This document shows, one piece after another, positions 618 through 58,518 of a DNA stretch of 58,518 bases (positions are counted from its first letter, which is position 1; every line of letters begins with the position of its first letter). The translations under genes and the position numbers were made by a program. The notes beneath the pieces are model-generated. The model saw only the letters and a program-made list of their open reading frames with translations. It made no database searches and was not told the origin of the DNA. This DNA comes from Alphaproteobacteria bacterium (lineage in GTDB: Bacteria; Pseudomonadota; Alphaproteobacteria; SP197), in the NCBI GenBank assembly GCA_028277285.1, contig JANQGO010000458.1:1-58518 (forward strand). The letters are read 5' to 3'.

Positions 618-620
618 GCG

Positions 621-4320: not shown

Positions 4321-4426
4321 CTCTACAGCAACCCGGCACCATCGCCCGCCTGTCAACCCGAACGGGGTCGCTGTCAAGCGGCCCCGGGCCTCCGGTTCTA
4401 CCGTTCTTCCATCGCGAGGAGCCGCT

Positions 4427-7263: not shown

Positions 7264-7269
7264 ACCGTC

Positions 7270-7881
7270 ATGGCCGATCTCCGATCCTTCATCTTCATCG
7301 ACCAGCTGCAGCCCCAGACGCTCGCCTATATCGCGACCTGGATGCGCGGCCACCTGCCGCGCCGCAACATGGCGGCCCAGATCATCGAGATCGCGCCGGG
7401 CCTGGATATCGAAGCACTGACCGACGTCGCCTTGAAGGGTGCCGATGTGAAGGCGGGTATCCTGGTGGTCGAACGCCAGTTCGGTTACCTGGAGTTCCAC
7501 GCCAAGTCGCCCGCCGAAGTCCGGGCCGGCGCACAGGCTGTGCTCGACGCGCTGGAAGCGCGGCCCGAGGACGCGACGCCGCCGAAGATCCTGGGCTCCA
7601 GCATCGTGTCGCGGGTCGACCGGCAGCACGCCTTCCTGATCAACCGCAATAAGCTGGGGTCGATGATCCTGGGCGGCGATTCGCTCTTCCTGCTCGAATG
7701 CCAGCCGGCGTCCTACGCGATCCTCGCCTGCAACGAGGCGGAGAAGGAAGCCAACATCAAGGTCATCGACTACCGCATGATCGGCGCCAACGGCCGCCTT
7801 TATCTGGCCGGCCGCGAAGCGGAGATCCGCGCCGCCCATGAGGCTGCGACCCGTGCGCTCGAACTCCAGGGCGCGGCTTAG
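7270..7881 (+). CDS. Tandem-domain BMC shell protein (BMC-T), copy 1
   Basis: 203 aa with two BMC-type halves (ITDVALKGADVKAGILVVERQFGYLEFH and MILGGDSLFLLECQPASYAILACNEAEKEANI); next to EutN-like and BMC-H genes. Confidence 0.82.
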   Translation: MADLRSFIFIDQLQPQTLAYIATWMRGHLPRRNMAAQIIEIAPGLDIEALTDVALKGADVKAGILVVERQFGYLEFHAKSPAEVRAGAQAVLDALEARPEDATPPKILGSSIVSRVDRQHAFLINRNKLGSMILGGDSLFLLECQPASYAILACNEAEKEANIKVIDYRMIGANGRLYLAGREAEIRAAHEAATRALELQGAA

Positions 7882-36660: not shown

Positions 36661-36906
36661 CTGGCGATCTCTGCGCTACCTTCGTCGCCCGGCTGGTATG
36701 GCGATATCAGGCATTCTCGATTAATCTATGGTGCAGCAGAGCTACCGTGGGCGCGGCAATCGGGGTTGACGTTCCCATGACTGGATTTCTTCCGGCGCCA
36801 GCGTTCAAACATCGGGCACATCCGGCGGCACGCCTGGCATGTGGCGGGCCTGACGTTTCATTCAGCGTCGCCAGCACATTCGTTTGACCACCTTTGGCAA
36901 CACGTC

Positions 36907-39900
36907 ATGCATGACCATTCTAGCCCTGCTAACGCCCAGTCTGCCGAGCAACCCGCGTCTAAGGCGCAAGGGCCGATTGAGGATATCTATCCGCTGACGG
37001 ACATGCAGAACGCCCTGCTGGTGCGCTGCGTGACCTATCCCGACCAACCGGTTTACATGGGCCAGTGGTGGGCCGAGATCGAAGGCCCCATCGACGGCGA
37101 AGCGTTCGGCGCGGCATGGCGTTCGGTCGTCCAGCGCCACAGCGCATTGCGCTCGGCATTTCACTGGGAGTTAAAGGACCAACCCTTTCAGGTTGTACAC
37201 CGCGAACCGGATTTCGCGGTCGAGAACCTGGATTGGTCCGGTGACACGGCGTGGCGCGACCGGCTGAGCACGTATCTTGAAGAGGACAGGCAGCGGCCCT
37301 TCGATCTGAAGCGCCCGCCGCTGATGCGTGTCAGGCTGATCAAGATCGGCGAAGACCGCCACCTGATCGTGTGGACGCGCCATCACCTGGTCGTCGACGG
37401 CTGGTCGCTTGGCGTTCTTCTCGATGAAGTCTTCACGGTTTATCGATCAATTGCCAACGATGAACCGGTATCGTTGAAGCCCGCCACACCCTTTAGGTCC
37501 TATGTCGATTGGCACCGCGGCCGCGATAGCGCCGTCGCGCGGGCGCATTGGAAGCGTGTATTGGCTGAGCTGGAGGCACCGCCGGCACCCGGCGCCCCGC
37601 TCGGCTCCGCGATCGACCTCGGTGAACGCGTCGAGACGCTGGACGCAGCGACGACCAGCCGGATCGCCGACGCCGCGCGCCAGGCCCGCTTGACGCCAAA
37701 CACCCTGGTACAGGCCGCGTGGGCGCTCGTCCTGTCCCGGATTTCGGGTATGGACGAGGTCTTGTACGGCGCGGTCGAGACGCTGCGTCCCGCCCACCTG
37801 CTCGATGACGCGTCGGGACCGCTGGTCGGGCCGCAGATCGCTATTCTACCGGTTCGCGCGCGGATTGACTCGACCCCGCTGGGCGATTGGCTGCATCGAC
37901 TGCAGGCCGACATGATCGCTGGACGCGAGGCCGGCGCGGTCGGGTTGGACGTGATACGCGACCTCATCGGGGGACCGCGCCATGCCTTGCCCTTTGACAG
38001 CATGGTGGGCTTCCAGAACTACCCCCTCGACGAGCGCGGTCCGGTGATGCAGGCCGGGCTCATCGTGCGCGACGGTGCCGACATCTCGCTTCCCGACATG
38101 CCGCTCAACATGATGGTCGAGACGGGCGACACGATGACGTTGCGGCTGATGTACGACCGCCGCTACAAGGCCGATGGCGAGGCCGATCAGATCCTCGCCA
38201 TGCTCGCCAACACCCTCGGCGCCATGCCCGGCCAGTTCGATACGCCGGTCGAGACCATCGACGTGCTGCCGCCCGCACTGGCCCGTCGCCTGCTCAATGT
38301 GTTTTCCGGATTCGGGCCGATAGCGGTCGCCGATCCGACGGTGCCGGAGCTCATACTTCGCCACGCCGAAGACAATCCAGACACGATCGCGCTGCGGTTC
38401 GCCGGCAAGGACACGTCCTATCGCGAACTCGTCACCGCCGCCTCGCACATCGCCGAGCAGATCCTGCGCCATGACGACAGCAAGCAAAAGCGCATCGGCG
38501 TTTTGCTGGAACGTTCGCCCCAGGCTTTCGCCGCCATGATCGGTGTCATGCTGGCGGGCGCAGCCTACGTGCCACTGGATCCCAACACGGCCCCCAACCG
38601 CCGTGAACGCATCCTGCAGACCGCCGGTGTCCGGACCGTGGTGACATCGTCGGCACATACGGGAGACGTTGGCGACCGGCATGTCATCGTGGCCGACGAG
38701 CTGGCACTCGAGGCGCGACCCGCCCTGACCCATGCCTTGCCCTCGCCGGATGACGAGGCTTACGTCATCTTCACATCGGGATCGACCGGCCAGCCCAAAG
38801 GCGTGGTCGTCGATCACAGCAATCTTCGTTATCACATCGCCGCCCGCAAGGCCGTCTACCCCGACAACCCGATTGATACGTTTCTTCTCAACCTGCCGCT
38901 CCACTTCGACGGTTCGATCACCGTCGTGTTCTGCACGCTGGCAACCGGCGGTACGCTGGTCCTGGCCGAGAAGGACGAGGCCATGGACCCTGACCGCCTG
39001 GCCGCGTTGATTGGGTCCGCCGGCGTGACGCAGACCGCGATGGCGCCGTCTCTGTGGCGGATGATTTTGGAGGCGGCCAGCCCCGAGCAGTTGAAGACGA
39101 TGCAACTGACGATCGTCGCGATCGAGGCCTGTTCGGTCGATCTGGTGCGCGACCACTACGAGAAACTGCCGAACGCGCCGCTCTACAACGAATACGGCGC
39201 GACGGAGACGACCGTCTGGGTGACGGCGCATCGTTGCGGCGAGGACTTTGGCGAGCCGATCGAACCGCTCGGCCGGCCGGTCGCCGGCACGCGCGCCTAT
39301 GTCGTCGACCGCCACAACAGACTTTGCCCGCCCGGCACGATGGGCGAGCTGATCTTTGCCGGGCCCGCCATCGCGCGCGGCTATATCGGCCTGGACGAGC
39401 AAGCCGTGTCCGGCTTCGAGCGCAACCGCTTCGACGACGACCCATGGTTCGCGCCGGCCTATCGCACCGGTGACCTCGCGCGGTTCGATCTGGGCGGGCG
39501 CTTGTGGTTTCATGGCCGTGCCGACCGTCAGGTGAAACTGAACGGCAACCGTATCGAACTCGGTGAGATCGAGGCCTGCCTCGCGTCCCACCCGGCGATC
39601 AAGGAAGCCATCGTCGTCATCCTGGAGGCTGACAGTGGGCCCGCGCGCCTGGTCGCGCATATCGTCGCCGCCGAACCGCTGGAGCAGGCCGATATCCGCC
39701 ACTTCCTGGGCCTGCACCTGCCGGCCTACATGATCCCCCAGGCCGTCTTGCAGCATGAGTCGCTGCCGCGCACGTCGACCGGCAAGATCGTGCTTTCCAA
39801 GCTTCCAGTGCCTGAGGTCAGGACCTCATCGGAACCGCCCGAAGGCGAGCGGGAGAACGCGCTCGCGACAATCTGGCGCGAGGCGCTGGGCCGCGAAGAG

Positions 39901-40143
39901 ATCGGCCGCCATGAAGACTTCTTCGACCTCGGCGGCGATTCATTGACTGCGATGCTCGTGGTCTCGCGCATTCGCCGCGACATGAAGCTGGGTGCCGAAC
40001 TGCTCGACCTCTTCGAGGCGCCTGAGATCGCCGAACTGGCGACACGTCTGGCCGCCAGGGACGGGGCGGAGTCACAGACCACCGCTACCCTGGTTCCGCG
40101 GCAGCGTGCTCGTGTCGAATTGCCGATAGGACAATCGAACTGA
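36907..40143 (+). CDS. Non-ribosomal peptide synthetase, C-A-PCP
   Basis: C domain RHHLVVDGWS; A domain IFTSGSTGQPKGVVVDHSN, YNEYGATETT, YRTGDLARFD; PCP DLGGDSLTAML. ATG at 36907 chosen (ORF from 36841). Confidence 0.93.
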   Translation: MHDHSSPANAQSAEQPASKAQGPIEDIYPLTDMQNALLVRCVTYPDQPVYMGQWWAEIEGPIDGEAFGAAWRSVVQRHSALRSAFHWELKDQPFQVVHREPDFAVENLDWSGDTAWRDRLSTYLEEDRQRPFDLKRPPLMRVRLIKIGEDRHLIVWTRHHLVVDGWSLGVLLDEVFTVYRSIANDEPVSLKPATPFRSYVDWHRGRDSAVARAHWKRVLAELEAPPAPGAPLGSAIDLGERVETLDAATTSRIADAARQARLTPNTLVQAAWALVLSRISGMDEVLYGAVETLRPAHLLDDASGPLVGPQIAILPVRARIDSTPLGDWLHRLQADMIAGREAGAVGLDVIRDLIGGPRHALPFDSMVGFQNYPLDERGPVMQAGLIVRDGADISLPDMPLNMMVETGDTMTLRLMYDRRYKADGEADQILAMLANTLGAMPGQFDTPVETIDVLPPALARRLLNVFSGFGPIAVADPTVPELILRHAEDNPDTIALRFAGKDTSYRELVTAASHIAEQILRHDDSKQKRIGVLLERSPQAFAAMIGVMLAGAAYVPLDPNTAPNRRERILQTAGVRTVVTSSAHTGDVGDRHVIVADELALEARPALTHALPSPDDEAYVIFTSGSTGQPKGVVVDHSNLRYHIAARKAVYPDNPIDTFLLNLPLHFDGSITVVFCTLATGGTLVLAEKDEAMDPDRLAALIGSAGVTQTAMAPSLWRMILEAASPEQLKTMQLTIVAIEACSVDLVRDHYEKLPNAPLYNEYGATETTVWVTAHRCGEDFGEPIEPLGRPVAGTRAYVVDRHNRLCPPGTMGELIFAGPAIARGYIGLDEQAVSGFERNRFDDDPWFAPAYRTGDLARFDLGGRLWFHGRADRQVKLNGNRIELGEIEACLASHPAIKEAIVVILEADSGPARLVAHIVAAEPLEQADIRHFLGLHLPAYMIPQAVLQHESLPRTSTGKIVLSKLPVPEVRTSSEPPEGERENALATIWREALGREEIGRHEDFFDLGGDSLTAMLVVSRIRRDMKLGAELLDLFEAPEIAELATRLAARDGAESQTTATLVPRQRARVELPIGQSN

Positions 40144-43100
40144 TGAGCAGTGGCTATCTGGCAACGCTTTCGTTCGGACAGCGCCAGATCAGATTTCTCG
40201 AACTGCTGCGGCCTGGCCAGTCGAGCTTCGCCATGCCGCTTATCATCGATATCGAAGGCCCGTGCGACGAGCGTGCGCTACAACAGGCACTGCAGTCGGT
40301 GATCGACCGACACGACGTCCTGCGCGCATCGTTCCCCCTTGTCGACGGGTCGCCGGTTCAGGCGGTGCGCGATAGTCTGATCCTTGCGATGCCGCAAGTC
40401 GACGTCGAAACGTCGGTGTCCGAAAGCTGGCGTGACCACCTGCTGACGACAGCCGACGAACTGGCCGCGCAAGCCTTCGACCTCGCGGCAGGGCCGCTGA
40501 TAAGGGCCAGGCTGCTGCGCGCATCCGATCAACGCCGTGGCATCGTCATCGTGGTGCACCACATCCTCGCCGACGCCGCGTCGCTCGACATTCTGGCGCG
40601 CGATCTGGTCAGCACCTATGCCGCCGCCCAGGCTGACCACGCCGCACAGACGGGCGACCTGCCGCTTCAGTTCACAGATTTTGCGGATTGGGAACAGGAG
40701 AGCTTCGGCCAAGCCGACACGCCGGAACTTGATGCCGCGATAGCCTATTGGCGCACGCAACTGCGTAACGCCCCACCCTTGCTTGATCTGCCCTTCGACC
40801 GCGCGCGCAGGACGGATGGCGAGACCGCCAGTGCGCACCGGAGCCTGACGCTTCGGGGACCGATTGCTGAGAACCTGACGGCCGTCGCGCGGCAGTCGGG
40901 CGCGACGCCGCTGATGGCCTTCCTGGCCGTATGGATCGCGGTGTTGCGCCGTTGGAGCGGGCTCGACGACATGGTCGTGACCATCCCCATATCGAAGCGA
41001 ACCCGTCCGGAGCTGACCGACTTGATCGGCCTGTTTGTCGATACCCTGCCGATCCGCACATTCATCGACAGCGAAACGACCTTTGCCGATCTGCTCGGAC
41101 AGGTACGCCAGGCGGTCCTTGAGGCAATGGAACATCGCGACCTGCCCTTCGAGCGCATCGTTCAAGCGATCGGCATCGAGCGGCGCAGCGATGTCATTCC
41201 ACTGATGCAGGTCCTGTTCGGCGCCCATCAGGGCCAGATCGACCTGCCGGAAACCGCCGATGGGTGCCGTTTCGACGTGCTGAGCGACAGCGTGGAACAG
41301 GCGGCAAAAGCCGACTTGTCCATGGTCTACAGCCCCGCGCCCGACGCGCTGGAGCTTTGGTGCCGCTATGACGCGATGCTGTTCGATGCGTCCACGGTCG
41401 AGGCCTTGCTGCACTGGTACGGCAGGATCGCGACGGCCGTCGGCGATCAGCCCGATATCGCCGTCGATGCCATCCCGCTGGTCGACAAGGCTGAGGGCAA
41501 GGACCTTGTCGCGCGTTTCAACGCGACACAGCGGCCCTATCCGCGCGACCGCTCGGCCATCGATCTGTTCTTTGAGGTCGCCGCCGCGTCACCCGACGCG
41601 ATCGCCATACGGGAAGATGGTGTCCGCTTGAGCTATGGCGACACGGCGATAGAGGTGCGCAGGCTGGCCGCCGTTCTGGCAAGCGAAGGCGTCGGCAAGG
41701 GCGACCCTGTGATCCTCGCCATGACGCTCTCGGCATCCTGCATCCAGTTGATGCTCGCTGTCCTGACGCTTGGCGCCGTTTTCGCGCCGATCGATCCGCA
41801 CTATCCGAAAGCCCGCCGCGACGAATTGGCACGGAGTATCGAGGCGCGTTTTGCCATCGTCCATGCCGATGGCCTCGATCTCGCCGCCGATACCGTGCTG
41901 CTGGTCGAGGATGTGCAGGCGCGCGCGGCATCGGCCAAGCCGCACGGCGGATCGCCGGTCGACGCCACCGACCCCGCCTACATCATGTTCACGTCCGGCT
42001 CGACGGGCGTGCCCAAAGGCGTCGCCGTGCCGCACCGGGCCATCGTCCGCCTGGTGCGCAATACCGACTTCTGCGATTTCGGCCCACAGACACGCGGCGC
42101 CGCCTACTCCAACCCCTCCTTCGACGCGTCGACGCTTGAGGTGTGGGCGCCGCTTCTCAACGGCGGCACGGTCGTGCCCGTGGACCGCACGGTCGTCATG
42201 GACGCCCGTTCGTTGGGCGACTTTTTGTCGGCCAACGACATCAATCTGATCTGGATGACGGCGGGTCTGTTCCAGCAGATCGTCGCGGTCGACCCCGCGG
42301 TGTTCGCCGGCGACCGCACGCTTATCGCCGGCGGCGACGTGGTCAGCCCGGCCGCCGCAAGGGCCGTGCTCGAGGCCGGCGAAGGCACCGGCTTCCGGCT
42401 GTTGAACGGCTACGGCCCGACGGAGAACACCGTCTTCAGCACGGTCTATGACATCGGTGCGTTGGAGGAAACGGCGACGACCATCCCGATCGGCAGACCG
42501 ATCGCCAACAGCACGGCCTATGTTCTGGACGCCAGCGGTCAGCCCGCACCGGTTGGCGTGGTCGGCGAAGTCTATGTCGGCGGCGATGGCGTGGCGCTCG
42601 GCTATATCGGCGATCCCGAGCGAACCGCGTCCAGTTTTCCACTGGACCCGTTCTCGACCGAGCCGGGGGCGCGGATGTACCGCACCGGCGACCTCGGACG
42701 CTGGCGCAGCGACGGCGTGATCCAGTTCTTTGGGCGCGCCGACAACCAGGTCAAGGTCCGCGGCTTCCGTATCGAGCTGAACGAGATTGCCACTGCCCTG
42801 TCACGCCACGCCGACATCGGTGCGGCAACGGTCACGGCGCCGCGCATGGCGTCCGGAGCGCGTCAGCTTGTCGCTTACGTTGTCGCCAAGAACGGCCATG
42901 CGCTGGACCAAACCGCGCTACGCGGCTATCTGCAGACGCAGCTTCCGCCGCACATGCTGCCGCATGCCTATGTCGTGATGGATGCGCTGCCGCTGACCAT
43001 CAACGGCAAGATCGACGTCAAGGCGCTGCCGCCGGTCGAGCAGCAGCACTTCGACCGCGCCGACACGGTGACGGCGCCGCGCACCCATGAAGAGCAACGC

Positions 43101-46100
43101 CTCAGCGCCATCTGGCAGGATCTGCTCGGCCAAACCGGGATCGGCGTGCACGACAATTTCTTCCAGGTCGGTGGCGATTCGATCCTGGCCATCCGCATGG
43201 TGGCCCGCGCCTTCGATGCCGGCATGTCGATCAGCCTGAAGGACGTCTTCGAACATCAGACAATCGAAAGCCTTGCTGCCGCCGCCGTATCGCAACGCCA
43301 GCAAAGCGCCCCGCGCGGCGGTGATCAGTTCTTTGCCATGGACCTGCTGCCGCAAGCCGGTGACGAGACGGTCCCGTTCGCCCTGGCCAGTGTGGTGCTG
43401 GATCACGCGATCGGCTCCGTCGAGCTGGGTTATGCCGTTCAGCGCCTGGCGGAACGCCATGAAGGGCTACGCCTGCGCGTCGTCGCGGACGGCGTGACGC
43501 GGCGGCTGACCGTCGATGATTTCCTGCCCATCATCCCGGTGCGCGTGGTCGACGTGCCGGGTCTGGAAGACGGCAACATCGGCGCGTGGATCGACGACCA
43601 TCGCGAGCGTTTGGGGCGCGGTTTGGATCTGACGGCGGGCGTCACGATTACGGCGACACTGGTCAACCGCCCGCCTAACCTGGGACCCGTCGTGGCGATT
43701 GCCCTGCATGACGCCGTTGCCGACGATCGCGCGCTTGCCGTGCTGGCGGCCGAGCTGGAGGCGGAGTTGCAAAGCGGTCTGGCGCCACGCATGAAGCCGG
43801 GAGAAAGCCCGACACTCAAAGACTGGCTCAACTGGCTGCGCGGCCATGCCGCCAGTAAAGCCGTTCGCGACAGCGCCACCGCCGTGGAATCGTGGTCCGG
43901 CGACCTGGGCGCGCCCGCATTCTTGGACAGTCACGACGTCGGCGACGTTCGCGCCGAGATCTGGCTGAACCCGTCGCTGACCCGCGCGTTGACCAGCACG
44001 ATGCCCGCCCGCTTGGACATCTCCCCGCTGGATCCGATCCTGGCAAGCCTGGGCGCCGCTCTCGGTGGTGACGAGCGCGGCAATGGGTTGGTGATCGAGA
44101 TGATTGACGGCGGCCGCGCGCTGCCGCCCGACGCGCCGCGGCCGGAGAACATGCTCGGCAATCTGGAGACAGTCCTGCCGATCCGGCTGGGACCGTCGCC
44201 TGAAGACGAAGCCGAACGTTTGATTGCCGCCAAGGCAGCACGCCAAGCCGTCCAGCCGATGGGTCCGGTCTACCGGGGCGTTCGTTCGACATTCGATCTG
44301 CCCGCGGCACCCATCGGTTTGGCATGGCGTCCGCCGCAACGCGCCGAGGGACCGCTGCGGCTGCACCAGATGCCCGGATTCTCCGCCTCCGTGCGCGGCG
44401 CCTTGATCGCGGGGATTGTCGATGGCCGGTTGCGGCTTCAATGGACCGGCGCCCGGGTTTCCCAGGATGCCCAACGGCTCTTGCAACAGATCGCCGACGA
44501 CTTGGCGGCGTTCGCCGCATGGGCGGGCGAGGCCCGCGCCGCGCTTCGGACACCCTTCGACTTCCCGCTTGCCCGGATCGACGCCGACACGCTTCAACGG
44601 CTGATCGACCGTGAATCCGATTTCCAGGACATCTATCAGCTGTCGCCGATGCAGGAGGCGATGCTGGTCCATTCGCTGTCGGCGACCGGGTCGGAGGTGA
44701 ACTTCGAGCAAAGCTGCACGCGTTTCACGGGCAACCTCGACATCGCGGCTTTTCAGCGGGCCTGGACCTACGTGTTCGATCGCCACCCGGTCCTGCGCAC
44801 GACGTTTCGCTGGCGCGGCCTCGATCGGCCGCTGCAGATCGTGCGCGGCCATGTTCCCGCGCCCTTGACGATCGAACATTGGGACAGTTTCAGCGAGACG
44901 TCGCTTGAGGCCAGGCTGGCCGACGACCGCGCCACCGGCTTCGATCTGGAAGCCGGTCCGCTGGCGCGCATGACCCTGATCGTCACGGCGTCCGACGACG
45001 CCTATCTGATGGCAAGTTTCCATCACCTTCTGGTCGACGGATGGTGTCTCTCCCAGTTGGAATGGGAGGTCCGCGCCGCCTATGAGGCGTTTCGCCGCGG
45101 CACCCCGCCCATGCTTGAAGCGGTGGCGCCCTACCGCGACTACATCGCCTGGCTGGCCCAGGTGGATCGCGGCGCGATGCGCCGCTACTTCGCCGGCAGC
45201 CTGAACCATGCCCCGGATCAGCCGCCGATCCGTCAGGTCGAACCGCGCCGGGGTTTCGTCACGGCCAGGCGCGTTCTCGACCGCGCGACAAGCCAATCGC
45301 TCAACGGGCTGGCACGCCGGCGCGGCGTGACGATCGGGGCGATGACCCATCTGGCATGGGGCCTTTGGTCGGCGGCGCGCCGCGGTCAATCGGACACGGT
45401 CTTCTGCACGACGGTCTCCGGACGGCCGCCCACCATCGCCGGCGTCGAGCAGATGGTCGGCCTGTTCATCAACAACCTGCCGCTTCGGCTGCGCTTCGGC
45501 GACCACACGCCGCTCAGCGACCTTGCCGCCGGCATCCAGCAGCAACTGGGCGACTTGCAAAGCCACGCCTACATTTCGCCGCTTGAGGTCTTGGACGCCG
45601 CCGGTGCCACCGACCGGGCCGCGGGCCTGTTCGATACGCTGATGGTTGTCGAGAACGTGCCGTCGGGCACCAGCGCATGGGCGGGCGCGCCGGATCTGAC
45701 GGTCGAGTCGATCCACGGCACCCTGAAGACGGCGTATGCCTTGACCTTTGTCGTCGTTCCCGGCGAGGAGATTGCGCTTTCCCTGGTGCTGCCGGACGCC
45801 GACGGCGGCGCCGGCGAGGAAGGCGACGCCATCCTTGAGGGCATCGCGGCCATCCTTACGGCCTTGCCACAGACGTTTGACGGCGTCGTTGCGGATCTGC
45901 CGCTGCCGGCGCCCGGCCACGCCGAGGTCGCTTCGACGGCGCATGCCGGGCGGGTTTCGGGCTCGCTGGTGGAGCGCCCGCGCAGCACGCTTGAGGCCCT
46001 GGTGGCAGAAGCGGTTGCCGCCATGGTCGACGGCAGCATCCGTCTTGATGACGATTTCGCATCGCTCGGTCTGACGTCTCTCGGCATCGCCAGCCTGGCG

Positions 46101-47075
46101 GCGCGTCTATCGGCGCGGCTGGGGCATCCGGTGCCCGTCACACTGATGCTCGAACACCGGACCGTCGCGGCCTTGGCGGCGGCTTTGAACAAGGGGCAGA
46201 CCTGGGACGCGGTCGTTCCGATGTCGGGCGGAAAGGGCGAGCCGTTTGTCTGCGTTCACCCGATCGCGGGCGAGGTCAGCGCCTTTATGGACCTGGCGCG
46301 CGCCATGCCGGGCGAGATACCCCTATGGGCCCTTCAGGCGCCGGGTCTGGAGGAAGGACAGGTTCCCATCGATACGGTCGAAGGCTTGGCATCGGCAAAC
46401 CTTGAAGCGTTGTCGAGACGGGACCTGCCTTCGCCCCGGTGGTTGGGCGGCTATTCGTTCGGCGGCATCGTCGCCTTCGAAATGGCCCGTCAGTTGACGG
46501 CGGCGGGCCGTGATCCCGGCCAGGTCATCATCATCGACACGCCCGCACCGCTCGACCACAAGTCCATCCTGAGCGACGACGAGAACCGCGCCCACGCGGA
46601 GTGGCTGCTGCGCATGGCCGATGTCAGGGCGCGTTACCACGGCACCGACGTGCCCTTCGACCTGGACGACCTGTTAGGGCGCGATCAGGCCGGGCGTCTG
46701 TCGTTCGCGGCGGAACGTCTGCAAGGGAGCGGTCTGCTGCCCCAGGATGCCGACACAGGCTGGCTGACGCGCGCGCACGCGACCGGCTTGACCCTCTATC
46801 GCGCGTTCCTGGATTATGCGCCGGATCGCAGCGTGGCGCGCGACGTGGCGGTCTTGCTCATCAAAGCATCGCATCAGGCGGACGGCGATCTCGACGACGT
46901 CGATGTCCGCTGGCGCGACGACCCGACCCTGGGCTGGTCTCAGTTCATCGACGCGGCCATCGACATTACGATCGTTGAGGGCGACCACGTTTCGATCCTG
47001 GCCGGCGATAAGGCGGCAGCGGTGGCGCAGGCTATCGCGGCGTCAATTGTCGGCACGCACGCCGCCGCGCAATGA
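40143..47075 (+). CDS. Non-ribosomal peptide synthetase, C-A-PCP-(degenerate E-like)-C-PCP-TE
   Basis: C VHHILADAAS; A MFTSGSTGVPKGVAVPHR, NGYGPTENT, YRTGDLGRW; PCP VGGDSILAIRM; E-like domain with ALHDAVADD in place of HHxxxDG; C FHHLLVDGWC; PCP LGLTSLGIASL; TE GGYSFGGIVAFEMARQL. Confidence 0.92.
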   Translation: MSSGYLATLSFGQRQIRFLELLRPGQSSFAMPLIIDIEGPCDERALQQALQSVIDRHDVLRASFPLVDGSPVQAVRDSLILAMPQVDVETSVSESWRDHLLTTADELAAQAFDLAAGPLIRARLLRASDQRRGIVIVVHHILADAASLDILARDLVSTYAAAQADHAAQTGDLPLQFTDFADWEQESFGQADTPELDAAIAYWRTQLRNAPPLLDLPFDRARRTDGETASAHRSLTLRGPIAENLTAVARQSGATPLMAFLAVWIAVLRRWSGLDDMVVTIPISKRTRPELTDLIGLFVDTLPIRTFIDSETTFADLLGQVRQAVLEAMEHRDLPFERIVQAIGIERRSDVIPLMQVLFGAHQGQIDLPETADGCRFDVLSDSVEQAAKADLSMVYSPAPDALELWCRYDAMLFDASTVEALLHWYGRIATAVGDQPDIAVDAIPLVDKAEGKDLVARFNATQRPYPRDRSAIDLFFEVAAASPDAIAIREDGVRLSYGDTAIEVRRLAAVLASEGVGKGDPVILAMTLSASCIQLMLAVLTLGAVFAPIDPHYPKARRDELARSIEARFAIVHADGLDLAADTVLLVEDVQARAASAKPHGGSPVDATDPAYIMFTSGSTGVPKGVAVPHRAIVRLVRNTDFCDFGPQTRGAAYSNPSFDASTLEVWAPLLNGGTVVPVDRTVVMDARSLGDFLSANDINLIWMTAGLFQQIVAVDPAVFAGDRTLIAGGDVVSPAAARAVLEAGEGTGFRLLNGYGPTENTVFSTVYDIGALEETATTIPIGRPIANSTAYVLDASGQPAPVGVVGEVYVGGDGVALGYIGDPERTASSFPLDPFSTEPGARMYRTGDLGRWRSDGVIQFFGRADNQVKVRGFRIELNEIATALSRHADIGAATVTAPRMASGARQLVAYVVAKNGHALDQTALRGYLQTQLPPHMLPHAYVVMDALPLTINGKIDVKALPPVEQQHFDRADTVTAPRTHEEQRLSAIWQDLLGQTGIGVHDNFFQVGGDSILAIRMVARAFDAGMSISLKDVFEHQTIESLAAAAVSQRQQSAPRGGDQFFAMDLLPQAGDETVPFALASVVLDHAIGSVELGYAVQRLAERHEGLRLRVVADGVTRRLTVDDFLPIIPVRVVDVPGLEDGNIGAWIDDHRERLGRGLDLTAGVTITATLVNRPPNLGPVVAIALHDAVADDRALAVLAAELEAELQSGLAPRMKPGESPTLKDWLNWLRGHAASKAVRDSATAVESWSGDLGAPAFLDSHDVGDVRAEIWLNPSLTRALTSTMPARLDISPLDPILASLGAALGGDERGNGLVIEMIDGGRALPPDAPRPENMLGNLETVLPIRLGPSPEDEAERLIAAKAARQAVQPMGPVYRGVRSTFDLPAAPIGLAWRPPQRAEGPLRLHQMPGFSASVRGALIAGIVDGRLRLQWTGARVSQDAQRLLQQIADDLAAFAAWAGEARAALRTPFDFPLARIDADTLQRLIDRESDFQDIYQLSPMQEAMLVHSLSATGSEVNFEQSCTRFTGNLDIAAFQRAWTYVFDRHPVLRTTFRWRGLDRPLQIVRGHVPAPLTIEHWDSFSETSLEARLADDRATGFDLEAGPLARMTLIVTASDDAYLMASFHHLLVDGWCLSQLEWEVRAAYEAFRRGTPPMLEAVAPYRDYIAWLAQVDRGAMRRYFAGSLNHAPDQPPIRQVEPRRGFVTARRVLDRATSQSLNGLARRRGVTIGAMTHLAWGLWSAARRGQSDTVFCTTVSGRPPTIAGVEQMVGLFINNLPLRLRFGDHTPLSDLAAGIQQQLGDLQSHAYISPLEVLDAAGATDRAAGLFDTLMVVENVPSGTSAWAGAPDLTVESIHGTLKTAYALTFVVVPGEEIALSLVLPDADGGAGEEGDAILEGIAAILTALPQTFDGVVADLPLPAPGHAEVASTAHAGRVSGSLVERPRSTLEALVAEAVAAMVDGSIRLDDDFASLGLTSLGIASLAARLSARLGHPVPVTLMLEHRTVAALAAALNKGQTWDAVVPMSGGKGEPFVCVHPIAGEVSAFMDLARAMPGEIPLWALQAPGLEEGQVPIDTVEGLASANLEALSRRDLPSPRWLGGYSFGGIVAFEMARQLTAAGRDPGQVIIIDTPAPLDHKSILSDDENRAHAEWLLRMADVRARYHGTDVPFDLDDLLGRDQAGRLSFAAERLQGSGLLPQDADTGWLTRAHATGLTLYRAFLDYAPDRSVARDVAVLLIKASHQADGDLDDVDVRWRDDPTLGWSQFIDAAIDITIVEGDHVSILAGDKAAAVAQAIAASIVGTHAAAQ

Positions 47076-47161
47076 CATCACCGGAACCGGCCGCGCCGCC
47101 TTCGATCCCAAGGTCTCGCCATGCCCCTGACCCGTCACAACCCAACACAACGGATCTCGTT

Positions 47162-48013
47162 ATGGATTCTGAACACCTGGTCGCTTTGACCGCGAACTAC
47201 GAGCTGTTTCGCCGAAGGATGGCCGAGCGGACGCCGGACAACCCTGCGCTCCATGGCGCCAAGTACTATTCGCAAAACGACGAAGACGGCGTCATCGAGC
47301 ACATTTTCGATGTCGTCGGTGTCGACCGCGGGACCTTTGTAGAAATCGGCTGCGGTCATGGCATCGAGAACATGACGGCTTACCTATGCCTCAAAGGCTG
47401 GTCCGGCGTTTGGGTCGACGCCAACAAGGAGTTCGTTGATTTCATCCGCCGCCAATGCGCGGATTTCGCGGACGAGGCCGCCTTATACGACAGGCCGGGT
47501 CATGTCGCGGTCATCGAGAAGTTCGTCACCCCCGACTCCGTGGCGTCGACGGCCAAAGCTGGATTGGCGGCGCTCTCCAGCACGCAGTTTGATTTCTTGT
47601 CGATCGATATCGACGGCAACGATCTGGCATGCGGCCAAGCGATTCTGGAGCACTACCAACCAAGCGTCATCTGCATGGAGTACAACTCCATTCTTGGTGC
47701 GCGCTCGGATTTCGTGTTCCGCACCGATGGCGGCTATCGGTGGCAGCGTGACGACTACATGGGATGTTCGTTGCGGGGGCTGACCAACGGACTGGCGCCT
47801 TTCGGCTATCACCTTGTCGCCTGCAACATGACCGGCACCAACGCCTTCTTCGTCGCAGAGCGTTATCGGGAACGTTTTACGCCTTACGAAATCGACGAAC
47901 TTTTTGTGCCCGCGCGCTACTACGAGATCCCCATGCACTTTCACCAAGCGGGCCACCCGCGCACGCTCAAGAACCAACTGGCGTGTGCGACGTTCGAGTT
48001 TCTCGATACGTAG
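47162..48013 (+). CDS. FkbM-family methyltransferase-like protein
   Basis: KYYSQNDEDGVIEHIFDVVGVDRGTFVEIGCGHGIENMTAYLCLKGWSGVWVDAN; LSIDIDGNDLA. Confidence 0.75.
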   Translation: MDSEHLVALTANYELFRRRMAERTPDNPALHGAKYYSQNDEDGVIEHIFDVVGVDRGTFVEIGCGHGIENMTAYLCLKGWSGVWVDANKEFVDFIRRQCADFADEAALYDRPGHVAVIEKFVTPDSVASTAKAGLAALSSTQFDFLSIDIDGNDLACGQAILEHYQPSVICMEYNSILGARSDFVFRTDGGYRWQRDDYMGCSLRGLTNGLAPFGYHLVACNMTGTNAFFVAERYRERFTPYEIDELFVPARYYEIPMHFHQAGHPRTLKNQLACATFEFLDT

Positions 48014-48045
48014 GCTTGTCGATACCGATCCGCTCTCTAACTGCT

Positions 48046-48936
48046 CTATGGCAGAAGCGGGAACATGTCGCCGCGAATGGGATCGCCCGGTCCGATCGGC
48101 ATATCGAAACCCATCGCGCGCAGACTGGCGACGACTTCTCCGCCATGGGGCGCCAGAACGGCCGACGAGCCGACCCACCGCGTCACAAACCGCCGGGCCT
48201 CCGTGGGGTTCGGATTTCCCGGCGCGCCGTGCAGCGTCAGCGCGTGAAAGATCAGGCAGTCGCCGGGCGCCATGTCCCACGACAGGATGTCGTATTGGTC
48301 GCGCGTCCCCTCGATATCGGGGATCAGTTCAAGTTCAAAACGCCCCTGCTCACCGTGTTCCTTGATCGACGCGATGCGATTGTGGGCGTTGTAGTACGTT
48401 TCGGCCTTCTCTAGCGCCTTATCGCCGCCGTCCTCCTGTTCGAAATACTGGGCCGGCATGAAGTAGCGGTTCCACGTGTGAGAGCCGCGCACGAACTCAA
48501 GCGAGCATTCCTTGGGGATCGCATCAAGCGCGACCCAGATCGACAGGAACGGGCCAAGCACGATGTTGTCGTGATGCCAGGGCGTGCGTTCGACGGTGCC
48601 GGGCCGTTTGACGAACCACGTGTCCTGCATCAGCCGAACATGCGGTTCGCCGAGGCAGCTTGCCGCCATCGCCGCAATGTTGGATTCATGAACGAAGTCG
48701 TCGAACTCCAGGATCCGGTCGCGCGTCCACGTATCGAGGTAGAAACCGCCGGGCTGATCATCGCCGCTCAACTTGCCGAACAAGGGACCGGGTTCCTTAA
48801 GGCCGCGCTCGACGCCGGCGCGAAGCGCTTCGACCCAGTTCTCGGAAATCGCATTGCGAACGCGAACCGCGCCATCGGCGTTCAGGGCCTCAAGATCGTC
48901 CGGCCTTACCGCCGACCCGACATCGCTTGCCGTCAT
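48046..48936 (-). CDS. Phytanoyl-CoA dioxygenase (PhyH) family oxygenase 1
   Basis: TPWHHDN (HxD), LTLHGAPGN distal His, EARRFVTRWVG. Confidence 0.85.
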   Translation of the reverse strand: MTASDVGSAVRPDDLEALNADGAVRVRNAISENWVEALRAGVERGLKEPGPLFGKLSGDDQPGGFYLDTWTRDRILEFDDFVHESNIAAMAASCLGEPHVRLMQDTWFVKRPGTVERTPWHHDNIVLGPFLSIWVALDAIPKECSLEFVRGSHTWNRYFMPAQYFEQEDGGDKALEKAETYYNAHNRIASIKEHGEQGRFELELIPDIEGTRDQYDILSWDMAPGDCLIFHALTLHGAPGNPNPTEARRFVTRWVGSSAVLAPHGGEVVASLRAMGFDMPIGPGDPIRGDMFPLLP

Positions 48937-48969
48937 CTCACGGCACCGCCTGGATCGGGCACGATCCGC

Positions 48970-49839
48970 TCATGCGGCCTTCTCGGGCAGCAGAGGGAAC
49001 ATCTCACCGCCAAACGCCGTGCCCAGCTCAAGCGGCACGTCGTGACCGGTCGCTTCGACGGCACCCTTCAGCACGTCGCCGTGGGGACCGACAACCGCCG
49101 TGGGTTCTGCCCAACGCGACACAAAGCGCCGCGCGTCGGCGCTGCTCGGGTTGCCGGACGAACTGTGCAGCATCATGCCGTGAAACACGATGCAATCGCC
49201 GGGCTCGACAGCCCACGACAGGATCTCGTAATCGCCGCGCGCGTTCTCAATGTCCGGAATCTGCTTGAACGTCAGACGCCCGGCGGCATCGCTCTGGGCC
49301 TCGCCCCTGCCGTGATAGGCCCGGCAGGCCTCCTGCATCTCGCGCAGGGTCTCAGCGCCTTTCTCCGTCGTGAAGTACTGCTCGAACATGAAACAGGAAT
49401 CCCAAAGGTGAGACCCCTTCACCAGCTCAAGCGACTCCGTCTTCGGAATCGGATCGAGCGCGACCCAGAACGAGTAATAGGTCCCCAAGATGCCGATATC
49501 CTGATGCCAGGGCGTACGCTCCACCGTGCCGGCGGGCTTGGAGAACCAGGCATCCAGCATCAATCGGGCTTGCGGTTCACCCAGACACTGGGCGGCCATG
49601 GCGGCAAGCTCGGATTCATGCAGAAAAGCCTGGAACTCCGGAATGTCCTTGCGCGTCCACATGTCGAACATGTAGCCGCCGGTATCGGCGTCGATGTCGC
49701 CCTTGAACAGCGGCCCGGGATGGCGAATGTTGCGTTCAATTCCCTTAAGCAACTGCTCGACCCAGTAGCCGGAGAATGCGTTCTTGACACGTATCGCGCC
49801 ATCGCTGTGCAACGTGTCGAGTTGTTCCTTGGTGAACAA
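48970..49839 (-). CDS. Phytanoyl-CoA dioxygenase (PhyH) family oxygenase 2
   Basis: TPWHQDIGILG (HxD), MMLHSSSGNPSSADARRFVSRW; paralogous to 48046-48936. Confidence 0.85.
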   Translation of the reverse strand: MFTKEQLDTLHSDGAIRVKNAFSGYWVEQLLKGIERNIRHPGPLFKGDIDADTGGYMFDMWTRKDIPEFQAFLHESELAAMAAQCLGEPQARLMLDAWFSKPAGTVERTPWHQDIGILGTYYSFWVALDPIPKTESLELVKGSHLWDSCFMFEQYFTTEKGAETLREMQEACRAYHGRGEAQSDAAGRLTFKQIPDIENARGDYEILSWAVEPGDCIVFHGMMLHSSSGNPSSADARRFVSRWAEPTAVVGPHGDVLKGAVEATGHDVPLELGTAFGGEMFPLLPEKAA

Positions 49840-50053
49840 ATTCGGTTCCCTTGCGGTTTCTCTTCTATAAGCTGATCAACAAATCCGATGCTCTGAAGAG
49901 CTCTCGCCGCGCATCCCACATTCCACATCGCGACCTGCCCGCTATGATAGTCCATCACCCCGGTCATTGCAGCCGCTTTGCGCGCTACATGCGTGCGGGC
50001 GCAGATCTGATGACCGGTTGCCTTGGCGGGCGGGGTAAACCGACTCCGGTTCG

Positions 50054-51295
50054 ATGAGCAGCAGCAATACCCTGGTTCGATGGCGGCTGGATGACGTGTC
50101 GTGCAATGTCCGGCCCGACGAACACGACACGCCCTGGTGCCTGACTCTGGACCTGTCCCGTGAAGGCACGGGCGAATCGGGCGCCTTCGAGTGGAACGCC
50201 CGCTATCCGGATCTGCTGATCATCGCGCCTCCCGATCGAGTGGCGGGCGACGGCCAGAGACCTCTACTGGTCACGCATCGCCAGGGTATCGGCGATTTCA
50301 TTCAACAGCTGCGCTATCTAAGCGCGCCGCAACTGGCCGGGCGCCGTATCCTGCTGGAGTGCCCGGCCCATCTTCACCAGCTCGTTGAAGCTCAAGACAT
50401 CGACGTCGAACCCGTCGAACCGGGACACCGGCGGAACGATCCGTCTTTGGATGAGATGTCCAACATGCGCCTTGATCAACGGTTCGACGATCCGACCGGG
50501 GCGGGCCCCTACATCAAGGCGTCATCCGCGGGCCTGCGCCGCTCTGCGAAACCTCTGCGTGTCGGCATCAACTGGTCCGGCATGCTGGGAACGGTCAGCG
50601 TTGCCATGAAGTCCGTCGCGTTGCGCGATCTCGAACCTTTGGTCGCGCCGCGGCGCGATATCGAGTGGGTCAGCCTGCAATGGGGCCCCACCGAACGGGA
50701 GCTCGACCGACACGCCTGGGGCGCCGGCGTGACACAACGCGGCAAGTCCATCGAAACGGTGGCCGACCTGGCCAGGGAAATCGCCGCGCTCGATCTGTTC
50801 ATCACGATCGACAGCGCGCCGGCTCATCTCGCCGGCGCGCTGGGCGTTCCGGTATGGACCATGCTCGGTCAGGCGATCGGATGGCGATGGAGGCTGGCCC
50901 ATCCCTCAAGCCATCTTTATCGCAGCATGACCCTGTTCCGCTTCGACCCGGCGCACGGCTGGCCCGGCGTCGTCAGCAGGGTCGGTGAGACCCTCGACAA
51001 GGACGACGTCCGCGCAAACGGCGCGCGACCCGACCAAGTACCGCAAGGCGGTGACAGCATCGCGGTCCGGTTTGCCGACGACCCCATCGGCACGGCACGG
51101 GCGCATGGCGTCATCGTCGAACCGAACGACCACGAGACATTGGCCGGCATGCTTCAACTGCTCGTAAGGTGCTACAAGGGCCTTCCGTGGTCGGTCGTCG
51201 AACCGCGGCCGAGCCCTGACCTGCGGGTGCTCGGCGCATTCGAGGGGCATCGGCTGGTCACCGACATCTTGGCGGCGGCTGACGGTCACGGATGA
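50054..51295 (+). CDS. Glycosyltransferase-like protein (GT9/GT41-type fold)
   Basis: HRQGIGDFIQQLRYL N-terminal motif and FITIDSAPAHLAGALGVPVWTMLGQAIGWRWRL C-terminal sugar-nucleotide-binding-like motif. Confidence 0.65.
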   Translation: MSSSNTLVRWRLDDVSCNVRPDEHDTPWCLTLDLSREGTGESGAFEWNARYPDLLIIAPPDRVAGDGQRPLLVTHRQGIGDFIQQLRYLSAPQLAGRRILLECPAHLHQLVEAQDIDVEPVEPGHRRNDPSLDEMSNMRLDQRFDDPTGAGPYIKASSAGLRRSAKPLRVGINWSGMLGTVSVAMKSVALRDLEPLVAPRRDIEWVSLQWGPTERELDRHAWGAGVTQRGKSIETVADLAREIAALDLFITIDSAPAHLAGALGVPVWTMLGQAIGWRWRLAHPSSHLYRSMTLFRFDPAHGWPGVVSRVGETLDKDDVRANGARPDQVPQGGDSIAVRFADDPIGTARAHGVIVEPNDHETLAGMLQLLVRCYKGLPWSVVEPRPSPDLRVLGAFEGHRLVTDILAAADGHG

Positions 51296-51368
51296 TCGCG
51301 CCGAACGTTGACGCTTCGCGGCTGTTGCGTTGACAGTGTCACGACGTCAACCATCAGCGACGGCGCGC

Positions 51369-52169
51369 ATGCACCAGCACTCATCCGATCCGGGCATTGC
51401 CAATCCGTGCTGGCTCAACGTCCTGCGTGAAGCCGAGCCCGACAGCCCGATCATCGTCTGCTTTCCGCACGCCGGCGGCAGCGTTCTGTCAGTGGCCAAG
51501 CTGGCGCGGTCGATCCCCGAACGGTTCGGTCTTGTCGCGGTCGCGTTGCCGGGTCGTGAACCGGGCGACCAAGACCAGCCGCCACGTCATGCCGCGACGG
51601 CGGGCCGAAAACTTGGCGGCGATGTCGCCGCGCTCTTCAACCGCCGACGCAGCGGTGAACGTGTCGTGCTTCTGGGCAACAGCTATGGCGCGCTGCTCGC
51701 CTTTGAAACCGCGCGATCGCTCCAGGCCATGTCCGACGGGGCCGGCCCTCCCCTGCCGATCCGACTGATCGTATCCGGCTTTCGATCGCCGTCCCTGCCG
51801 CCGGCCGACGCGCCGATCTTCGGGTTGCCTTCGCAAGATCTGATCGCCGAGCTTTGCCAGCGCTTCGGCTTGCCGGCCGGTGACATGACGATAACCGGCC
51901 TGTTTGACATTGAAGACGCCCTGCGCGCCGATCTGGAGGCTTGCGACACCTACCGCTGCCGGCAAGGCTCCACGCTGGACGCGCGGATCGATGTCTTGGC
52001 GATGGCTCAGGACGCTTCGGTGTCGCGCGCCGAGCTACAGGCGTGGCAGGAGGTCACGACGGCATCTGTCGTCGTGACGGACCTGGATTGTGGTCACTTT
52101 CCGTGGTCCACCCATCCCGAGGCCGTGGCTGACACCATCGTCGCGTTGATCGACGACGGCGCGTCATGA
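51369..52169 (+). CDS. Type II thioesterase
   Basis: CFPHAGGS, ALPGREPGDQDQP, LGNSYGALLAFE (GxSxG), DCGHFPW catalytic His. Confidence 0.88.
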   Translation: MHQHSSDPGIANPCWLNVLREAEPDSPIIVCFPHAGGSVLSVAKLARSIPERFGLVAVALPGREPGDQDQPPRHAATAGRKLGGDVAALFNRRRSGERVVLLGNSYGALLAFETARSLQAMSDGAGPPLPIRLIVSGFRSPSLPPADAPIFGLPSQDLIAELCQRFGLPAGDMTITGLFDIEDALRADLEACDTYRCRQGSTLDARIDVLAMAQDASVSRAELQAWQEVTTASVVVTDLDCGHFPWSTHPEAVADTIVALIDDGAS

Positions 52170-52508: not shown

Positions 52509-55298
52509 TTGAACCGTTTCGCAATAGGTCATTCGAAGAGTCGCACCAAACAAAAGCTGCAGCAGATCTATGCAACAGCGTGTCGCTGGCTGGATGTCGA
52601 GCCAGATGACGGGTTTGTTGAGACGGTGTTGCAGGATACGTCGATCAGTCGGGATAGCGATCTGGGCAGTCAGTTCGTATCCAGACTGCTCTCCGAAAAG
52701 CTTGGTATGCCGTCAGCGGCGTTCGGCTTGATCGGCACTGGGCTGCTTCACGCAATTCTCGATGCCGACGAGGCGTCAGACACCGCGAAAAAAGACGATA
52801 CCAAAGCATACGGCCGGGTGAGTGTGCCGTCCGAGGAGGCGACCGACCTTAACGGTTTGGCCGCGCGTCTGCTGCTGCCGCAGGTCGATCCGGGGGATGT
52901 CAAGAGGGCGGCAGCTTTTGTCAGCTTTCTGCTGAAGACCCATGGGCCGAAAGCGCTCATCGATTTCGGACGCGCCATGGGGCCCGAAGGATCGGTCGAC
53001 GAGGCGAGCAAGGCGGCGACCGGAAAGTCCACCGCTGTTCTGGAGTTGGAATGGCAGGGTTCCGCGGATGCGCAGCACAAGAAGATGGGACCCTTTCATG
53101 TTCTCGGCTGGGCTGCCAGGTCCGCATGCCGTTTTCCACGATTGCTCACCTACTTCTTCATCGCAAACGCCATCCAAATCTCCTACGGCGTCGTTGTGCC
53201 GGTTTGGCTTCAGCAGCTGTTCGACGAAGGTATCCAGCACAACCATATCGGCGTGATCGAACTCACGCTGACTTATCTTGTTGTTGGTTTCCTGTTCACG
53301 AGCGCAGCGGGTGTCCTGCTCGATTACTGTGTCGCTGCCCTCGGTCCCAGAATGCTGGAGCGCATGCGTTTCCGCATGTTCAACAAGCTCCAGCAGATGT
53401 CGACCCGATCGTTGTCGCGCTACGGCAGCGATGAAGTCGTCTCGAACTTCTCCAACGATTTGACCGTCCTGGAGAAAGCCGTCGTCTGGTCGGTTCCCGG
53501 CCTTTTCGCCAAGAGTCTGATGTTGATCGGATCCGTCGGCATCGCGTTCCATCTGGATTGGCAATTGGCGCTGCCGATGTTGATTGCCATGGCGCTGGCC
53601 TTCTGGCTGCCGCGGCTGATTGCCAAATGGGCCTTGAAGAAAACCCATGAACGCAGCATCGAAGATGCCAAACTGGTTCGGGTGATCAAGGAAAACGCCC
53701 TTCTGCAACGGGTCATTCACGCGTTCGGACTGACCTCGACCCTGGTGGACAGGTTTAGGAGCCAACTTGATGAGCTCTATCGATCAAGTTGGGGGCAGTA
53801 CTTCTCGTCAGGCTTGGTCGGGCGCGCCACCAACTTCGGGATCAGCGGCAGCCAGTTGATCGTGATCGGGCTGGGCGCGGTCCTTTCCGTCGAAGGTGAG
53901 GTGTCGGCCGGCACCATTGTCGCCTTTATCACGCTGCTGCTCAGCATCGGCGGCGCCGCCGGCTTCATCGGTGCGCAATTGCCGATCTTGATACAGGCGG
54001 TCGGTTCGCTCCAGCGTATCGAGACGTTTCTGGCCCAGCCTGTCGAGATCAAGCCGCCCGACACGGTCGAATCGATGGCTCTGCCGCTGAAGGCCGTGAC
54101 GTTCGACAACGTCTCGTTCAGCTATGAAGGCGACAAGGTCAACCTGGACGGCATATCGATACAGATTGATACACCGCAGCGCATCGCGGTCGTCGGGCCT
54201 TCCGGTTCCGGCAAGAGCACCTTCATTGGTCTGATCGAGCATCAGTTTGACCCAACGGAAGGGCACATCTATCTGAACGGCATCGATCTGCGGAAAATCG
54301 GCGACGAGCAGCGCAACGAGCTGATCAATGTCGTGCCGCAGGAACCGCTCTTGTTCCAGACATCCGTGCGCGAAAACATCCGAATGGGCAAACTTGACGC
54401 GACGGACGAGGAGATCGAGGAAGCGGCAAAGAAGGCGGAAATCCACGACTTTATCGTCAGCCTTCCCGATGGATACGATACGGACTCGGGCGAAGCGGGC
54501 CGGAAGTTTTCCGGCGGCCAGCGCCAGCGTATCGCGATCGCCCGCGCCATCATCAACGACCCTGAGATCCTGTTGCTTGACGAGGCAACGTCAGCCCTCG
54601 ACGAAGCCAGCGCCGCCGCCATCAACGAGACCCTGGAACGGGTGACACGGGGCCGCACCGTCTTTGCCATCACCCATCACCTCAACGACTGCGAGCTGAT
54701 GGATCTTGTCCTCGTGCTGAAGGACGGCAAGATCGTCGAGACCGGGACCCACAAGGAACTGGTGTCGCGCGAAGGCGCCTATGCCGACTTGTGGAACGCG
54801 CACACAATCGCCAATGCGACCGATGACCTAACAACAGATGACATCATCAAGATGCTGGGCCGGTTCGCGCTGTTCGAGGACCTGCCGGCAGACACCATGG
54901 AAAAGGCCTTCAAGGCGATGCGGCTTGAGACCGTGCAGGCCGGCACCAGTCTTTTGGAAGAAGGCCAGTCGGCCGAACGCTTCGTCCTCATCGTCAAGGG
55001 TACGGTGGAACGGACCGTGCGTATGCCCAGCGGCGAGATTCACGAGTTGGAGTTGCTCGACGCCGGCGAAGCTCTCGGCGAGTACGCTATTCTTGACGAC
55101 GCGACGAACCCGGCGACCGCAACGACAACAACGACGTGCACGCTGCTGTCGATCCACAAGCTCGACCTGCTGAAACTGTTGGGCGACGATCCTAGAATGC
55201 TGGCCCACATACAAACGATGCTGCGGGCGCGCGAAGACGAGATAAGGGAGCACATCACGTGGAGGAAACTGCACGAGTTGGTTGTTCCAAGTCCTTAG
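52509..55298 (+). CDS. ABC exporter (TMD-NBD) with C-terminal cyclic-nucleotide-binding domain and about 190-aa N-terminal extension
   Basis: NBD VVGPSGSGKSTFIGLIEHQFDP, FSGGQRQRIAIARAIINDPEILLLDEATSALDE; C-terminal cNBD-like FEDLPADTMEKAFKAMRLETVQAGTSLLEEGQSAERFVLIVKGTVERTV. Confidence 0.88.
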   Translation: MNRFAIGHSKSRTKQKLQQIYATACRWLDVEPDDGFVETVLQDTSISRDSDLGSQFVSRLLSEKLGMPSAAFGLIGTGLLHAILDADEASDTAKKDDTKAYGRVSVPSEEATDLNGLAARLLLPQVDPGDVKRAAAFVSFLLKTHGPKALIDFGRAMGPEGSVDEASKAATGKSTAVLELEWQGSADAQHKKMGPFHVLGWAARSACRFPRLLTYFFIANAIQISYGVVVPVWLQQLFDEGIQHNHIGVIELTLTYLVVGFLFTSAAGVLLDYCVAALGPRMLERMRFRMFNKLQQMSTRSLSRYGSDEVVSNFSNDLTVLEKAVVWSVPGLFAKSLMLIGSVGIAFHLDWQLALPMLIAMALAFWLPRLIAKWALKKTHERSIEDAKLVRVIKENALLQRVIHAFGLTSTLVDRFRSQLDELYRSSWGQYFSSGLVGRATNFGISGSQLIVIGLGAVLSVEGEVSAGTIVAFITLLLSIGGAAGFIGAQLPILIQAVGSLQRIETFLAQPVEIKPPDTVESMALPLKAVTFDNVSFSYEGDKVNLDGISIQIDTPQRIAVVGPSGSGKSTFIGLIEHQFDPTEGHIYLNGIDLRKIGDEQRNELINVVPQEPLLFQTSVRENIRMGKLDATDEEIEEAAKKAEIHDFIVSLPDGYDTDSGEAGRKFSGGQRQRIAIARAIINDPEILLLDEATSALDEASAAAINETLERVTRGRTVFAITHHLNDCELMDLVLVLKDGKIVETGTHKELVSREGAYADLWNAHTIANATDDLTTDDIIKMLGRFALFEDLPADTMEKAFKAMRLETVQAGTSLLEEGQSAERFVLIVKGTVERTVRMPSGEIHELELLDAGEALGEYAILDDATNPATATTTTTCTLLSIHKLDLLKLLGDDPRMLAHIQTMLRAREDEIREHITWRKLHELVVPSP

Positions 55299-58488: not shown

Positions 58489-58518
58489 GCCTCGCCCAGG
58501 GCCTGAACCTCGATCGGG
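58449..58518. other. Inverted segment or fold-back junction inside the KS coding sequence, bounded by inverted repeat CGACCCGATC / (C)GATCGGG
   Basis: Reverse complement of 58455-58518 translates as PIEVQALGEAYGPARASDLLIG, the expected continuation of the forward KS (…TGTPLGDPI). Confidence 0.85.

Follow-up and report, generated by a model that had tools for sequence, protein, structure and literature searches.

What does a domain with the build of an epimerization (E) domain, though not its catalytic residues, do in the middle of a nonribosomal peptide synthetase (NRPS)? The question is raised by contig JANQGO010000458.1 of an Alphaproteobacteria bacterium (assembly GCA_028277285.1), which we analyzed over its whole length of 58,518 nucleotides and refer to as the window, and in which the second NRPS of a biosynthetic gene cluster (NRPS2) holds such a domain, here called Cx. 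We interpret Cx as a conserved, probably E-derived domain that is almost certainly dead as an epimerase and has a non-catalytic role, with recruitment of a partner enzyme and service as a structural spacer nearly equally likely. Ten Cx loci form the basis of the comparison, namely the window (genome G000), its sister G001 and a set of more distant lines.

NRPS2 (40143–47075, forward strand, as are all features below unless noted; 2310 amino acids) is organized as C1-A-PCP1-Cx-C2-PCP2-TE, where C stands for condensation, A for adenylation, PCP for peptidyl carrier protein and TE for thioesterase, and Pfam recognizes in it three Condensation, one AMP-binding, two PP-binding and one Thioesterase domain. 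Cx (43323–44546, residues ~1061–1468) is an internal condensation-superfamily domain of ~410 amino acids with PCP1 before it and C2 after it, and the initial annotation, which had placed a domain of this superfamily between a PCP and a C domain, is borne out in that respect, also by a predicted full C/E fold. PCP1 (43095–43283) carries the motif VGGDSI, identical in all ten orthologs, and carriers of the GGDSI type precede E/DCL domains (PMC10212144). Downstream, a linker of E-to-DCL type, TPFDFPLARIDADTLQR (44550–44600), whose TP.DFPLA pattern recurs in the orthologs and behind intact E domains, leads into C2 (44625–45932), a DCL-type condensation domain with an intact HHLLVDG that our tree places within the DCL clade. 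Taken alone, Cx scores 19.3 bits against PF00668 (cut-off 30.6) and 13.5 bits (E 0.05) against TIGR01720, the model of the E-domain C-terminus (cut-off 74.2). Cx is nonetheless a real domain and no product of chance, as its sister ortholog in G001 aligns without gaps at 63% identity and its second active-site His is absent from 10/10 orthologs.

Aligning Cx with 26 E domains placed the former HHxxxDG site at 43707–43727, where the window reads A-L-H1189-D-A-V-A-D1194-D1195-R. The first His and the Asp are retained, whereas the second, catalytic His has become Asp and the Gly has become Asp as well; it had been proposed that the first His and the DG were lost, of which the missing Gly stands, the first His and Asp being kept and the second His being what vanished. 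That second His is replaced in every ortholog, by Glu in eight, by Asp in the window and by Arg in the G001 sister, and the Gly is Asp or Glu throughout, giving H-E-A-V/I-A-D-D in eight loci and H-R-A-V-A-D-E in G001, with H1189, A1191, A1193, D1194, R1196 and L1198 invariant in all ten. The former E4 site (EGHGRE; 44094–44117, residues 1318–1325) reads IEMIDGGR, and here E1319, D1322, G1323 and R1325 are invariant across the ten, such that E-x-x-D-G-x-R replaces EGHGRE and the position of the catalytic Glu aligns with I, L or V. The N-terminal E1 motif PIQxWF was absent from Cx in the alignment with E domains, and FNYLG and GWFTxxYP are likewise lost. Of the E-like C-terminal features that had been pointed out, ENMLGNLETVLPIRLG does occupy the E5 position, but the signature WF(T/S)..YP is gone, and the resemblance to E domains shows better in the C-terminal segment, in the GGDSI carrier upstream and in the DFPLA linker, which leads on to a C domain of DCL type. 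Nor is there an intact active site in a shifted position, as HHxxxD was found in 0/10 orthologs, while as a control the true E domain of the cluster keeps HHxxxD and E.HGR in 6/6 clusters examined. Epimerization is strongly argued against because the catalytic His is lost in every ortholog, with Glu, Asp or Arg in its stead, and judging from these motifs Cx is very probably inactive as an epimerase, in keeping with the earlier suspicion of a degenerate, perhaps inactive, epimerization-like domain.

Such losses could mark a gene in decay, and we therefore asked how widely Cx occurs. Orthologs were found in ten assembly lines from three families of Alphaproteobacteria, including cultured Ancylobacter type strains, and none of the ten genomes has a stop codon in Cx. 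A first contig scan with a two-ortholog alignment gave no match, a 385-genome sample of the class held no distant Cx ortholog, and tblastn of Cx against plasmids found none; a phylum-wide search then returned a distant ortholog at 278 bits, which a scan of genome contigs traced to Ancylobacter polymorphus and to four further Ancylobacter/Xanthobacteraceae genomes, and later searches added two more genera of that same family as well as a single genome from a third one. Weaker profile matches (two in G016, one on G000:C104) proved to be ordinary E or C domains whose motifs are intact or nearly so. Between the window and G001, the ratio of nonsynonymous to synonymous change (pN/pS) is 0.37 for Cx, compared with 0.22–0.24 for the C and A domains. 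Within Cx, the N-lobe is 74% and the C-lobe 56% identical between these two genus members (p 2e-4), whereas in the same pair the cluster's intact E domain shows the opposite trend (74% versus 87%), and across the ten orthologs conservation is 0.68 for the N-lobe versus 0.56 for the C-lobe. On this sequence record Cx is a domain that has been kept rather than an accident in decay, and since the same degenerate domain persists in ten assembly lines of three families it probably has a non-enzymatic job.

The origin of Cx points to E domains by several routes. Against subtype profiles built from 23 E, 26 DCL, 32 LCL and 4 Cy domains, the window Cx scored 79 bits for E, 48 for LCL, 31 for DCL and 15 for Cy, and hhalign of seven Cx sequences matched E at 5e-23 over 371 columns, versus ~1e-12 for LCL and 7e-11 for DCL, each over only ~250–260 columns. 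A single Cx domain searched against the Protein Data Bank (PDB) with phmmer gave one weak, unrelated match; a PDB profile search with the two genus orthologs gave as its only credible matches the E domains of PvdL (6e-9), TycA and TycB. In trees Cx grouped with E domains (support 99/95, then 100/99 in a second tree) on a long stem, the Cx branch itself being separate and long at 1.8 changes per site. An AlphaFold2 model from an 80-row alignment has the full C/E fold (pLDDT 87.4, pTM 0.87; a model from the two-genus-ortholog alignment, pLDDT 36, was not used), and with it Foldseek returned PvdL E2-C3 at the top and TycB3-E and TycA-E within the first twelve. No X-domain entry appeared in the PDB sequence matches to E=10 nor among the 50 fold matches listed. 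By profile, tree and predicted fold, then, Cx in all likelihood descends from an E domain.

If Cx does not epimerize, a candidate partner lies close by. PhyH1 (48046–48936, reverse strand; PF05721, 84.8 bits) is a PhyH-family Fe(II)/2-oxoglutarate oxygenase with HxD, a distal His and RRxxxRW, and an ortholog with HxD and the distal His is present in 10/10 Cx loci. The initial annotation had drawn attention to two PhyH oxygenases, and both exist, but PhyH2 (48970–49839, reverse strand; PF05721, 80.2 bits; 50% identical to PhyH1) is an extra found only in the window's cluster among the ten. Elsewhere in the class PhyH homologs are widespread yet at most ~42% identical outside Cx clusters, and being common and distant they gave no independent test of the pairing. 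No P450 is present among the annotated cluster genes.

We propose that Cx began as an E domain whose catalysis was lost prior to the divergence of the ten sampled lineages, and that it would have been maintained from then on as a platform without catalytic activity, set between PCP1 and C2. The A domain would load Val or a similar residue onto PCP1, Cx would leave that residue unepimerized, and C2, DCL by descent, would now accept an L-configured peptide. In what is the weakest step of this proposal, the conserved N-lobe of Cx would dock a trans-acting partner close to the peptide carried by PCP1; the PhyH-family oxygenase present at every Cx locus is the likeliest candidate, and Cx would work like the glycopeptide X domain by convergence. 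Docking of PhyH is thus a serious though tentative candidate for the role of Cx. Somewhat more doubtful, but possible, is the broader suggestion that Cx represents a new class of recruitment domain, one that would be E-derived, would dock a PhyH-type oxygenase on a carrier-bound lipopeptide, and would have arisen independently of the P450-recruiting X domain while converging with it on active-site plugging (HRxxxDE, seen in one ortholog). Were this so, dead catalytic domains would repeatedly become docking sites, which would offer a new way of positioning tailoring enzymes on assembly lines; even if Cx were a spacer, a D-residue predicted from domain order would be wrong at NRPS2.

Several observations weigh against this proposal. 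X domains recruit P450s and not PhyH enzymes, and it may be PCP1, and not a trans partner, whose contact keeps the N-lobe conserved; moreover, C2 is also N-lobe-biased across the ten orthologs (0.78 versus 0.70), and because it leans the same way the lobe bias is a hint only. PhyH accompanies the whole cluster and not Cx alone, as the polyketide synthase (PKS), FAAL, ABC transporter, type II thioesterase, NRPS1 and NRPS2 all travel together with it, and since the entire cluster is conserved together, joint occurrence does not tell docking apart from a structural role; being expected under every hypothesis, it leaves recruitment as something we infer. Approximately unbiased (AU) tests keep the alternatives of Cx with DCL (p 0.12) and Cx with LCL (p 0.13), so that E descent is strongly favoured yet unproven. 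Finally, the invariant Glu1319 lies two residues upstream of the catalytic-Glu position and could be a re-registered acid, so that altered chemistry keeps a slim chance.

Close to docking in plausibility, and held just as tentatively, is a purely structural account in which PCP1, E and C2 fold as one block and the dead E domain persists for that reason only, C2 needing an E-type interface and linker for hand-off, with no trans partner at all. It would account for the retained E-type GGDSI of PCP1, the intact E-to-C linker and the DCL type of C2, and there are documented cases of inactive E domains with no known partner in LgrA (PMC8150014) and in DpnS3 of diperamycin (PMC10888640). The fixed charged replacements and the invariant H, D and R in the dead site, however, look to be beyond drift. 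The DpnS3 domain, moreover, belongs to a Gly module, in which an E domain has no task, whereas the A code of NRPS2 is by its motif presumably Val-like, and on that ground a Gly-module explanation, as for diperamycin, is disfavoured here. Those same invariant residues (H1189, D1194, R1196, E1319, D1322 and R1325, each in 10/10 orthologs) would suit an enzyme re-tooled with a new active site, whether for another reaction on the PCP-bound chain or for slow epimerization with altered residues, but as the place of the catalytic His holds Glu, Asp or Arg, no single base is conserved, and with PIQxWF missing as well we consider re-tooling unlikely.

Less likely still is that Cx truly belongs to the glycopeptide X-domain or siderophore interface-domain family. 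The G001 ortholog does read HRxxxDE, as the kistamicin X domain does, and the cluster includes an Fe/2-oxoglutarate oxygenase, an association known from interface domains, but searches by sequence and by fold lead to E domains (without an X entry among the 50 fold matches listed), the order is PCP-Cx-C-PCP-TE and not PCP-X-TE, the carrier has GGDSI and not GGDSG, and the oxygenase is of the PhyH family. Least credible of all is neutral decay of a useless domain; the less conserved C-lobe and a standalone Pfam score under cut-off would fit it, but the absence of stops in ten genomes of three families, the pN/pS of 0.37 and the confident fold largely refute it.

Besides NRPS1 (36841–40143; C-A-PCP), the window holds a type II thioesterase (51330–52169), an ABC transporter with a cNMP-binding domain (52509–55298) and a FAAL-ACP for fatty acid loading (55259–57415; ACP, acyl carrier protein), all conserved in the cluster, and the start (57412–58518) of a hybrid synthase, KS-AT-ACP-AmT-C-A-PCP-E (KS, ketosynthase; AT, acyltransferase; AmT, aminotransferase). 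The contig ends inside this PKS gene, the rest of which, with its intact E domain, lies on contig C104 of the same assembly (1–7881; L022). FAAL-ACP followed by KS-AT-ACP-aminotransferase-C-A-PCP-E corresponds to the domain order behind lipopeptides with a beta-amino fatty acid, for instance the iturins. The first A code of the hybrid synthase, read by motif, we take to be Asp-like, and that of NRPS2, whose A domain has LgrA as its best PDB match, reads DALWIGGVFK in the window and DALWIGGTFK where readable in Ancylobacter, presumably Val-like. Local to the window are FkbM-like, second PhyH and heptosyltransferase-like genes (47072–51295) that have no counterpart in the other nine clusters, G001 carrying a glycosyltransferase-like open reading frame (ORF) in their place. 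The C domain of the hybrid synthase (L009 9564–10922; L022 3415–4818) reads QPHxxTDGW in 6/6 clusters, with its first His changed to Pro. Within the same family, an A-PCP-E fragment on G013:C247 near 1793–2263 (L004/L091) ends in another E domain that is degenerate independently, with HELVTDA where HHxxxDG is expected and KVAHGRE where EGHGRE is expected.

The last module of NRPS2, C2-PCP2-TE (44625–47045), has no A domain; its PCP2 (45990–46187) has the unusual motif LGLTSL, lacking GG, and is followed by a type I thioesterase (46245–47045; Pfam Thioesterase). The four elongation carriers of the cluster are matched by only three NRPS-type A domains, and none lies outside it in G000, G001 or A. 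polymorphus; as the A. polymorphus genome is 100% complete and has exactly three, PCP2 would be loaded by one of them or otherwise. On G016:C119 (102389–104896 and 106370–107635) a related A-less C-PCP-TE protein, the C domain of which is sister to C2 (97/88), adjoins a stand-alone A ORF that may load it in trans.

Seen beside known systems, Cx shares with the E domains of PvdL (E2), TycA, TycB3 and GrsA the fold, the position between a PCP and a DCL domain, the GGDSI carrier, the C-terminal segment, the DFPLA linker and the placement by profile and tree, but differs from them in its long branch and in lacking the catalytic second His (10/10), EGHGRE, GWFTxxYP, FNYLG and PIQxWF. Inactive E-type domains within working synthetases are its next likeness; module 2 of LgrA is reportedly a Gly module. 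An inactive E domain is documented in LgrA (PMC8150014), and that of DpnS3 is inactive in a Gly module and likewise in its counterpart in the related art cluster (PMC10888640), being kept there much as Cx is kept. Those domains meet Gly, whereas the residue predicted here is Val, and the decay of Cx is far deeper and spans a ten-member lineage. Interface domains of siderophore synthetases are, as far as their descriptions go, a C-superfamily subtype tied to Fe/2-oxoglutarate hydroxylases (PMC12230676), which resembles the link proposed for Cx; by those same descriptions the partner there is a siderophore Asp/His beta-hydroxylase and not a PhyH-family enzyme. The X domain, finally, has HRxxxDD in teicoplanin (Tcp12; PMC11546977) and HRxxxDE in kistamicin, where it is inactive, has a blocked channel and binds oxygenases (PMC6565677). 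Cx has in common with it a C/E-type fold, the change of HH to H(R) and of G to D/E, and an oxygenase gene in the cluster. As for the X motif itself, among the ten it is the G001 ortholog that carries it, the window reading HD..DD and the other eight HE..DD. Cx differs from X in that the second position varies among E, D and R, in its probable descent from an E domain and in its setting: in place of PCP-X-TE with LGGDSG there is PCP1(VGGDSI)-Cx-C2-PCP2-TE, internal before C2. The X-domain analogy of the initial annotation, taken as family membership, is thus contradicted by the position of Cx, the motif of its carrier protein and its sequence kinship, and because these differ any likeness of Cx to X would be convergent. 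In the literature searched, only X and interface domains came up as non-catalytic C-superfamily families tied to oxygenases, and if PhyH docking is indeed the role of Cx, it would be the third such domain, of independent E origin.
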